Below, in pieces: positions 2,486-25,412 of a stretch of 64,000 nt of DNA. The notes beneath the pieces were generated by a model. That model was not told the origin of the DNA and searched no databases. It worked only from the letters and a program-made list of their open reading frames with translations. The translations under genes were made by a program, and so were the position numbers. The stretch's first letter is position 1, and each line of letters opens with the position of its first letter. The stretch is from Pelagibius sp. CAU 1746 (GTDB taxonomy: Bacteria > Pseudomonadota > Alphaproteobacteria > Kiloniellales > Kiloniellaceae). The stretch covers positions 2,170,001 to 2,234,000 of the forward strand of contig NZ_JBDOQT010000001.1 of assembly GCF_039839785.1 (NCBI RefSeq). The letters run 5' to 3'.

Positions 2486-2600
2486 CTTTGTTCCTTTGCT
2501 ACAAAACCGCCTACAAGAGTAACACGAAACCGCCGGATTTATTCCTTGGGGCCGCGAAGTTGCGCCTTGCGCGGGAAGGGGCCTGGCTTATGGCTGTCGA

Positions 2601-2661
2601 TGGTGCCCGCTGCCGGACTCGAACCGGCACGGCCTTGCGGCCCCGAGATTTTAAGTCTCGT
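2601..2661 (-). pseudogene. 3' half of an interrupted tRNA-Leu(UAA) gene
   Basis: Read on the minus strand this segment has the anticodon loop CTTAAAA with stem half TCTCG, a long variable arm (GGGGCCGCAAGGCCGT), the T arm GCCGG-TTCGAGT-CCGGC, acceptor half AGCGGGC and a templated ACCA end. The D arm and 5' acceptor half are missing on this side: upstream sequence changes abruptly to unrelated AT-rich DNA. The missing half sits at 3631-3670. Its acceptor half GCCCGCT is the exact complement of AGCGGGC, and joining the two at the shared 14-bp core gives a perfect 87-nt tRNA-Leu(UAA). Confidence 0.88.
2648..2661. repeat. Direct repeat, left attachment-like site (attL)
   Basis: ATTTTAAGTCTCGT, identical to 3631-3644. 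It covers the anticodon loop and 5' stem of the host tRNA-Leu, the usual crossover region of tyrosine recombinases that integrate into tRNA genes. The two copies bound a 983-bp unit. Confidence 0.8.
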
Positions 2662-2758
2662 CGAAATCTTATTAGAATCAGTTGTTTATGGAGCAATGGT
2701 GAAATCAATTGCTCGCATGGATTTGTGGGGTTCCACAATTCACACGAGTAGGAGTGAC

Positions 2759-3352
2759 TCAACGGGTTTCTTCGTCACTTGATTCTCCTTCTGAATCCTC
2801 CTTGAACAAGTCCAACACGCGCTTCGCGTTTTCGTACGCCTCTTCGCGCTTCTTCTTTTGCTCGATGTATCTTAGGCGGAAGCAGTCCATGATAATTGCC
2901 AGGACCATAAAGTAGTGACCCAAGTTGATGCTTCCTGGGTCTTTGCTCTGGCCTGGCTTTTTGTCTTCCCTAATCAACTCTTGGCCCATTTTGGGAAACA
3001 GTTTGAAGAACTCTAGCTTCTCTTTTGTGCCGACTGCGAACTCGAGGTCGTGGGCGATCTTGTTTCGCATCGCGTTCACATACTTCACGGGCCGCAGCGC
3101 ATCTTCGGGAATCAAATTCATTGCGGCACAGAGTTCTGCTTTTGCCGGAAAGTTTAGACGCTCGATATTGAGCAACGCTGGTCTTGCCAAGGCTTCTCGT
3201 AGAGTTTCGATGAGCACGTGCTCGACATACAAATGGCCTTTGATAATGACATCGGCTTCGGTGTCACCGTCCAGGTGGGCGTGAAGTTTCTTTAGGTCGA
3301 ACGACCATTTACTATTGTCAAAGTCGTCCTGCTCTTCAGGCTTATCGGCCAT
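2759..3352 (-). CDS. HEPN-domain protein, probable toxin-type RNase
   Basis: A 197-residue protein starting MADKPEEQDD. An upstream in-frame ATG at 3400 lies inside the tRNA and gives only a translated tRNA 3' end, so the ATG at 3352 is chosen; a GGAAA sits 9 nt ahead of it. The mid-region is all-helical and contains RNKIAHD (Arg96 to His101), the Rx4H catalytic signature of HEPN ribonucleases. The C-terminal quarter is highly charged (QKKKREEAYENAKR, then an acidic tail). Known HEPN proteins include toxins and anticodon nucleases that cleave RNA during phage infection; the family name is a motif call, the RNase activity is inference. No antitoxin or nucleotidyltransferase partner is next to it. 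The gene lies 19 nt downstream of the tRNA-Leu on the same strand. Confidence 0.72.
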   Translation of the reverse strand: MADKPEEQDDFDNSKWSFDLKKLHAHLDGDTEADVIIKGHLYVEHVLIETLREALARPALLNIERLNFPAKAELCAAMNLIPEDALRPVKYVNAMRNKIAHDLEFAVGTKEKLEFFKLFPKMGQELIREDKKPGQSKDPGSINLGHYFMVLAIIMDCFRLRYIEQKKKREEAYENAKRVLDLFKEDSEGESSDEETR

Positions 3353-3371
3353 TTGGACGTTCCAGCAATGT

Positions 3372-3458
3372 GGTGCGGGCGGCGGGACTTGAACCCGCAA
3401 GGCCTAGTGGCCGGCAAATTTTAAGTCTGCTGCGTTTACCAATTTCGCCACGCCCGCG
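3372..3458 (-). tRNA. tRNA-Leu(UAA), complete copy carried by the element
   Basis: A full 87-nt class II tRNA: acceptor stem GCGGGCG/CGCCCGC followed by templated ACCA, D arm with AATTGG, anticodon stem GCAGA/TTTGC around loop CTTAAAA (anticodon TAA), a long variable arm with GGCC paired across a CACTA loop, and T arm GCGGG-TTCAAGT-CCCGC. Its body differs from the split host tRNA-Leu, so it is not a simple duplication of it. It probably supplies tRNA-Leu(UAA) function in place of the broken gene. A promoter-like sequence lies just upstream. Confidence 0.93.
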
Positions 3459-3474
3459 AAGCAATGGCTTCAAC

Positions 3475-3503
3475 CTATAGGTGGTTGCGGATGTTGCCGC
3501 AAC
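3475..3503 (-). promoter_or_regulatory. Sigma70-type promoter for the element tRNA-Leu
   Basis: On the minus strand TTGCGG (3503-3498) and TATAGG (3480-3475) are separated by 17 nt, a good fit to -35 and -10 boxes. The -10 box ends 16 nt before the tRNA 5' end at 3458, leaving room for a short leader. Transcription from here would run through the tRNA and into the HEPN gene. Confidence 0.5.
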
Positions 3504-3630
3504 ATTCTGCAACATCGCGATCGTTGATCCGCGTGAAGATCAATTCCTTAAGCGGATTGGAGTTTCTCGAAAACCTCCTCTTCCTATCCACACGCGGGAA
3601 ATATCCGCTAACATACTGATTTTCAATTAA

Positions 3631-3644
3631 ATTTTAAGTCTCGT
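3631..3644. repeat. Direct repeat, right attachment-like site (attR)
   Basis: Second copy of ATTTTAAGTCTCGT, identical to 2648-2661. Beyond it toward lower coordinates the sequence is AT-rich element DNA; toward higher coordinates it is the 5' half of the host tRNA-Leu. Confidence 0.8.
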
Positions 3645-3670
3645 ATATCTACCAATTCCATCAAGCGGGC
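3631..3670 (-). pseudogene. 5' half of the interrupted tRNA-Leu(UAA) gene
   Basis: On the minus strand: acceptor half GCCCGCT, D arm with GATGGAATTGGTAGAT, then anticodon stem CGAGA and loop CTTAAAA, after which the tRNA sequence stops and becomes AT-rich. It joins to the 3' half at 2601-2661. As it stands no mature tRNA can be made from this half. Confidence 0.88.
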
Positions 3671-3769
3671 TTGAGCCATCGAACGGGCAGGCCCTTCTTG
3701 TGCCCCATGGCGGCCTCCGGAGGCAAGGGCGGGCGAGGGGCATGTCCGGTCGGGCGGCCGGGTAAGGTC

Positions 3770-25137: not shown

Positions 25138-25183
25138 TTTTTGCTCCTTCCGGGGCCCGCCGCCCCAAGTTGGTTGAACAGGG

Positions 25184-25350
25184 TGACGGCCGGTCTCCTG
25201 GCTTGGAGCTCCTCCGGCGTTCGCCTTCCCGGCGCGCGGCGCCAGTGGCTTGTGGAACGCGGAGATCACACTCCTTACAGTCGCGGGGGCGGCGTCGGCT
25301 TCGCACCGACTTCCCGTTTCACTTCCCTTGGCGGGGAAGCACCGTCGCGG
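25184..25350 (-). promoter_or_regulatory. Cobalamin (B12) riboswitch
   Basis: Read on the minus strand the aptamer landmarks appear in order: GGGAAGTCGGTGCGAAGCCGAC, CCCCGCGACTGTAAGG, GCCACTGG, CGGGAAGGCGAACGCC and the terminal AAGCCAGGAGACCGGCC. This is the standard B12-box layout. It ends about 45 nt before the TTG start of the HupE-type gene, leaving the ribosome binding site under its control. High adenosylcobalamin would be expected to shut off expression. Confidence 0.93.
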
Positions 25351-25412
25351 ACAGCTTGGCGGCAAGCGGAAGAGAAGGCAACAATCGTTTACGTCCGAGG
25401 TAGTGGAACCTG

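Follow-up and report, generated by a model that had tools for sequence, protein, structure and literature searches.

A tRNA-Leu(UAA) gene of Pelagibius sp. CAU 1746 is split by an insert of about one kilobase, which brings a different, complete tRNA-Leu(UAA). The interrupted gene lies at positions 2601-3670 of a stretch of 64,000 nt (contig NZ_JBDOQT010000001.1, 2,170,001 to 2,234,000, forward strand), which was analysed at its full length and is called the window; unless another genome is named, positions are those of the window. Based on the results presented below, we consider it probable that the insert, 983 bp in length, is a minimal integrative element, which inserts site-specifically, supplies a substitute for the target tRNA without repairing the latter, and carries a HEPN defence gene.

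The host gene is located on the minus strand and is broken at the anticodon loop. Its 5′ half (3670-3631, with the 5′ end of the tRNA at 3670) comprises the 5′ strand of the acceptor stem, the D arm, the 5′ strand of the anticodon stem and the loop, and its 3′ half (2661-2601) runs from the anticodon loop to a CCA terminating at 2601. Each half includes one copy of a 14-bp exact direct repeat, ATTTTAAGTCTCGT on the plus strand (2648-2661 and 3631-3644), which belongs to the anticodon stem-loop and presumably forms the recombination core; no other copy was found on either strand of the window. Overlapping the two halves at the repeats yields a tRNA of 87 nt. The spacing is 983 bp from repeat to repeat, with an element body of 969 bp between the repeats (2662-3630, minus strand), and the GC content of the insert is 49% compared to 65% in its flanks. 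Thus, the split gene described in an earlier note on this DNA, made from the sequence alone, was borne out. Both host-gene junctions remain broken, i.e., the attachment site does not restore the tRNA, as it would in a canonical island at a tRNA site; a short common core within a host tRNA gene which is not reconstructed is the pattern of tRNA-dependent integration. ARAGORN and Rfam detected a single tRNA within the window, which is the element's own and complete (3457-3371, minus strand). Together with the unrepaired junctions, this agrees with the second claim of the note, namely that the host gene stays broken and a substitute is supplied.

The corresponding site is uninterrupted in relatives, for which the note had proposed a search. 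A complete tRNA-Leu(UAA) is present in all seven congeners searched, as well as in genome G652 of a second lineage described below, and the joined flanks of the insert align through the junction in each of the seven congeners. Synteny is conserved on both sides of the site in the nearest congener, which matches the joined flanks at 81.5% over 517 nt with three gaps; the other six reached 65-80% over about 180-317 nt. For congener G401, the complete tRNA was located at the start of one contig (L084, 86-172), and a second contig contains a displaced 3′ half (L083, 8852-8906); each adjoins syntenic flank, while the element itself was not assembled across. Apparently, this site was used by an ordinary, tRNA-restoring element at the same anticodon loop. 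Consequently, six of the seven congeners look like plain empty sites, and the gene of G401 was apparently rebuilt.

The substitute tRNA differs from the host gene and was recognized by ARAGORN (3457-3371) and by Rfam (RF00005, 61.5 bits, 3374-3457). All 46 tRNA genes detected in the genome were typed, and the UAA anticodon was found in the element only; the remaining leucine anticodons are CAA, CAG, GAG and UAG. A search for another tRNA-Leu(UAA), as suggested earlier, therefore returned none among the 46 detected genes. The assembly is 98.6% complete and consists of five contigs. Since tRNA-Ile(GAU) and tRNA-Ala(UGC), which are usually located in rRNA operons, are absent from its tRNA list, gaps may be present, and a second UAA gene elsewhere in the genome is for this reason called unlikely only. 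Near an integrase locus of the same genome (L206), ARAGORN additionally reported a tRNA-Leu with an AAG anticodon at an odd position, which is outside the 46 Rfam matches and does not read UAA. The anticodon loop, CTTAAAA, is identical in host and element tRNAs; an altered loop making the element tRNA resistant to cleavage is, hence, an unsupported idea. The note had also ascribed an own promoter to the element tRNA, which is not proven: a scan of 2560-3760 for promoters of the sigma-70 type was empty, and a weak TTGCGG-17-TATAGG upstream of the tRNA was seen by eye only.

The cargo of the element is an open reading frame (ORF) of 197 aa (3352-2759, minus strand), starting with an ATG 18 nt past the CCA of the element tRNA on the same strand. 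According to the ORF list, no other ORF of the insert exceeds 119 aa: the next longest, of exactly this length, is antisense within the cargo ORF, and no ORF of the size of an integrase is present. When the protein was aligned with five relatives, two of which stem from plasmids, R96, N97 and H101 were invariant in all six sequences. R96 and H101 form an Rx4H motif, in agreement with the Rx4-6H motif of HEPN RNases. A profile built from the six sequences matches the PDB entries 9oij (“HepS”, 6.9e-10) and 9oik (“HepS-H105A”, 1.1e-7), and the alignment to 9oij covers the motif. HepS is known here from the titles of these two entries, and we take it to be an anti-phage HEPN nuclease. The protein alone matched, at 7.6e-5, a PHROG whose function is unknown. 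Weak homologs were detected in five of 397 other genomes, where no tRNA was found in their loci of 1.7-3.4 kb. Judged by motif and profile, the HepS-like cargo looks like an anti-phage, RNA-cutting protein.

The same arrangement was found in a genus of another family. When the DNA of the window element was compared with 385 genomes of the class, the matches listed outside its own genome were confined to the tRNA or its immediate surroundings, and the top one among them led to genome G557, which contains an element of the same build. Four genomes were searched in the order of G557, all belonging to one genus, among them G730, which harbors a further element, and G652, whose tRNA-Leu(UAA) is whole as mentioned above. 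In G557 and G730, tRNA-Leu(UAA) is split by elements of 1,109 and 1,219 bp from core to core, respectively. Both elements contain a complete tRNA-Leu(UAA), whose CCA is followed after 13 or 15 nt by the start of an ORF; no other tRNA-Leu(UAA) appeared among the long tRNAs listed for either genome. All three small elements are oriented in the direction of the host gene. The cargo of G557 was assigned to HEPN_AbiV by Pfam (2.6e-13) and to AbiV by PADLOC (9.2e-9), that of G730 to DUF4145 (2.7e-7) and PD-T7-4 (3.2e-11), respectively. AbiV and DUF4145 have been placed in the HEPN superfamily, in which AbiV usually lacks the histidine of the motif (PMC3710099, available text). Thus, the cargo of each of the three elements matches a different HEPN family with a link to phage defence (HepS by profile, AbiV, and PD-T7-4/DUF4145). 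With three elements, the sample is small, and one of them served as the starting point from which the others were reached. The pairing of a HEPN gene and a tRNA, which the note had suggested looking for in other tRNA-Leu genes, is therefore present in two further genomes, in the same tRNA-Leu(UAA) gene. The family is rare, with three known cases in the 385 class genomes; two are recovered by a repeat pattern (see below) and G557 by the DNA search, and others may be missed.

The arms of the elements share short sequences. The left arm of the window element (3458-3630, minus strand) contains TGAAAATCAG near its end, which is common to the left arm of G557, and four copies of GTTGC/GCAAC, all of them just upstream of the tRNA; these could be sites for a recombinase or a regulator. 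At 3483-3515, GTTGC repeats form a nested imperfect palindrome upstream of the element tRNA, possibly representing recombinase arm sites or an operator. The arms of the window element, G557 and G730 contain 4, 9 and 7 copies of GTTGC/GCAAC, whereas mononucleotide shuffles contain 0.49, 0.83 and 0.74 on average, and 9, 0 and 0 of 5000 shuffles, respectively, reached these counts. The densities in the whole loci are 2.2, 3.7 and 2.3 copies per kb. Further, the two arms match each other in inverted orientation in G557 and G730, where 0 and 2 of 1000 shuffles, respectively, reached the score.

Additional elements were sought with these features. A pattern of a GTTGC repeat followed by a tRNA-Leu was found in two of the 385 class genomes, i.e., the window's own and G730, with G557 being 2 nt outside the allowed gap; in the order, it was found in one of 61 genomes, again the window's own. 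In the phylum, six of 398 genomes contained the pattern, five of them as ordinary intact tRNA-Leu genes without halves in the loci, and none of three stretches found in IMG/VR is of the small-element kind. The exact sequence of the left arm following the core occurred in 42 stretches of the species-genome collection, none of which, examined by eye, lies in the anticodon loop of a tRNA-Leu, and in two stretches of IMG/VR, neither of which does. ARAGORN detected no tRNA in five of the 42 stretches and in both viral ones. IMG/VR contained neither the element tRNAs nor the AbiV cargo, and the matches listed from collections of phages and plasmids (20 of 135, 20 of 1302 and 40 of 1294) were all within the tRNA stretch of the query.

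We propose that a circular form of the element would be recombined with the core by a tyrosine recombinase, which either has since been lost or would act in trans, encoded by a prophage or by a larger element that targets this loop. Because the attachment site of the element would share only the core with the target, the host gene would not be rebuilt, and the insertion would be tolerated because the element tRNA takes over the decoding of UUA, thereby compensating the integration damage. The tRNA and the HEPN gene are probably co-transcribed, and since all three elements lie in the direction of the host gene, the host tRNA promoter possibly drives the cargo as well. The HEPN protein would serve as a single-gene anti-phage effector, which cuts RNA once triggered by a phage. 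Precise excision would rebuild the host tRNA gene; any other loss would leave UUA without a tRNA and, thus, exert some pressure to retain the element, to an extent depending on how much the cell needs UUA.

Several observations weigh against this reading. Neither a recombinase inside the element nor an excised form was seen. In the window element, the inverted match of the right arm (2662-2758, minus strand) to the left arm is not significant, as 165 of 1000 shuffles reached its score. The element tRNAs are 83-90% alike, and an ordinary tRNA-Leu(UAA) of genome G247 is 80-87% like them. Accordingly, common descent of the elements from the likeness of their tRNAs was dropped as an argument; because the tRNA of G247 is nearly as similar, the tRNAs cannot prove it, and descent rests on layout and repeats. 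Concerning the cargo, the 197-aa protein alone has no match in Pfam, NCBIfam, PADLOC or PDB, so that its assignment as HEPN-type rests on profile and motif. Three of six relatives scanned match the HEPN Pfams DUF4145, RiboL-PSP and HepT-like at 4e-4 to 5e-4, below the cut-off, and the other three match none. A single-sequence AlphaFold2 model is all-helical and of low confidence (mean predicted local distance difference test 48.7, predicted template modelling score 0.30), neither supporting nor refuting a HEPN fold. Further, no relative of the protein was found in the genomes of 57 other relatives, and no close one in the species-genome collection (114 pattern stretches) or in IMG/VR (16 stretches).

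It is possible, if doubtful, that, as the note had proposed, the tRNA serves as an addiction device and is there mainly to kill cells losing the element. The element tRNA is the only tRNA-Leu(UAA) found, and of the 40 long ORFs considered in the window, 10 contain a TTA codon. Moreover, integration into a mycobacterial tRNA-Lys(TTT) without the phage tRNA is described as lethal in the available text of PMC10865867. However, TTA is rare, amounting to 17 of 16,210 codons in these ORFs, which were picked mechanically, longest first, and some of which may be false. Restricting the analysis to ORFs with high third-position GC yielded 3 of 13,083 codons in 2 of 35 ORFs, but as this filter is biased against TTA, the unfiltered count is preferred. 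Streptomyces coelicolor grows without its sole UUA-reading tRNA, as stated in the available part of PMC2000904. Further, precise excision restores the host gene, and compensation for the integration damage suffices to explain the tRNA.

Rather unlikely in our view is that the element is a remnant of a larger, integrase-bearing tRNA-dependent prophage or island, in which deletions left the ends, the selected tRNA and one defence gene. Larger substituting elements do exist, and the absence of an integrase-sized ORF from the window element fits this idea. In genome G797 (L172, contig C37, minus strand), the 5′ half of a tRNA-Leu(UAA) is followed by a 393-aa tyrosine-integrase-like gene, whose protein has a SAM-like domain over and a catalytic domain below the cut-off, and by an intron-bearing tRNA-Leu(UAA) before the contig ends; the 3′ half was not seen. 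The group I intron scores 42.8 bits with RF00028 (E-value 1.4e-9) and was missed at the gathering threshold (cut-off 50). This is a substituting element which brings an intron-bearing tRNA. In G730, an insert of approximately 40.6 kb (C1, about 77632-118330; L230 and L234) splits tRNA-Leu(CAA) at the anticodon loop, with the 5′ half at 77632-77665 and the 3′ half about 40.6 kb on. The end next to the 3′ half holds an integrase as well as a complete tRNA-Leu(CAA) of foreign type; we take the insert as a prophage. G730 therefore holds both this insert in tRNA-Leu(CAA) and a small element in tRNA-Leu(UAA). Foreign DNA in front of the anticodon loop was also observed at the 3′ half of a tRNA-Leu(UAA) in G424 (C52, L184, about 2880), representing the end of another element. 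What speaks against a remnant is that three small elements are built alike (a tRNA, a gap of 13-18 nt, one HEPN gene, and GTTGC repeats) while their cargo is unrelated, which is hard to obtain by independent decay. In total, 26 Phage_integrase matches were detected in the window's genome, G557, G730, G797 and G652, and no partner integrase for the small elements was identified, with 16 of the 26 loci scanned for nearby tRNAs.

We regard it as quite improbable that, beyond traveling together, the HEPN nuclease and the tRNA act as partners in function. In this reading, a family of such cassettes would exchange the sole UUA-reading tRNA of the host for its own and produce the nuclease from the transcript of that tRNA, such that the tRNA controlled by the element would be the target, trigger or restraint of the nuclease, and different HEPN proteins would be plugged into a frame led by the tRNA. 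A spliced host tRNA with the insert as its intron is hardly conceivable: group I introns in tRNA-Leu(UAA) sit in the anticodon loop, where the insertion point is located, but Rfam at gathering threshold, which also misses the intron of G797, found none in the window (the E-value mode was not applied to it), and, as a stronger point, introns lack three features of these elements: the 14-bp direct repeats, the complete internal tRNA, and the replacement of the cargo by AbiV or DUF4145 elsewhere. An assembly artefact is just as implausible, since the locus, known from a single assembly, is inside a contig of 3.56 Mb and its build recurs with different sequence in two other genomes. Elsewhere in the window, a cobalamin riboswitch was found at 25171-25361 on the minus strand (RF00174, 122.6 bits).

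Returning to the minimal integrative element, its principle is known from phages. In tRNA-dependent lysogeny of actinobacteriophages, the core is short, the tRNA is not rebuilt and a phage tRNA of the same isotype complements the loss; phage Gaia does so in tRNA-Leu(CAA), and a Lactobacillus prophage is cited as a possible case outside Actinobacteria (all from the available text of PMC10865867). The window element works in a like manner, but it is not a prophage: unlike a complete temperate phage, which encodes a tyrosine integrase, it has about 1 kb, no integrase and no recognized phage gene, bears one HEPN gene directly behind the tRNA, and sits in tRNA-Leu(UAA) of an alphaproteobacterial host. 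In prophages and islands of Sinorhizobium meliloti, an inactivated host tRNA is likewise replaced by an isoacceptor of the element resembling tRNAs of other Alphaproteobacteria; however, those integrated site-specifically carry a tyrosine integrase, and the phage-related sequences measure 3.24-88.98 kb (PMC11476347, as far as its text was available). Such features of tRNA substitution are absent from phiLM21-like prophages according to the accessible portion of PMC12429752. Canonical islands in tRNA genes (Islander) share the site-specific entry at the anticodon loop and the direct repeats, but the attachment site of an island restores the gene, which here stays broken (PMC4383910, available portion). 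Finally, the HEPN defence proteins HepS, AbiV and PD-T7-4 appear to be matched by the cargo of the three elements, with the difference that here a tRNA gene is just upstream, within an element splitting a tRNA. The designation as a previously unnamed type is therefore only partly right, because tRNA-dependent lysogeny and tRNA replacement have been described (PMC10865867, PMC11476347). An integrase-less element of one kilobase which combines a tRNA with just one defence gene was not found in the literature searched, as far as its texts were available, and this form is the new part.

If this reading is true, the substitution of tRNAs, which is known in temperate phages, also serves minimal defence cassettes, which comprise a tRNA plus a putative anti-phage gene within about 1 kb and have no recombinase of their own. 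This would explain in a simple way the foreign origin of some tRNA genes, and single-gene defence systems could be sought in a new place, namely directly behind a tRNA that lies within a split tRNA gene. It also raises the question of whether HEPN nucleases and the tRNA traveling with them work together.
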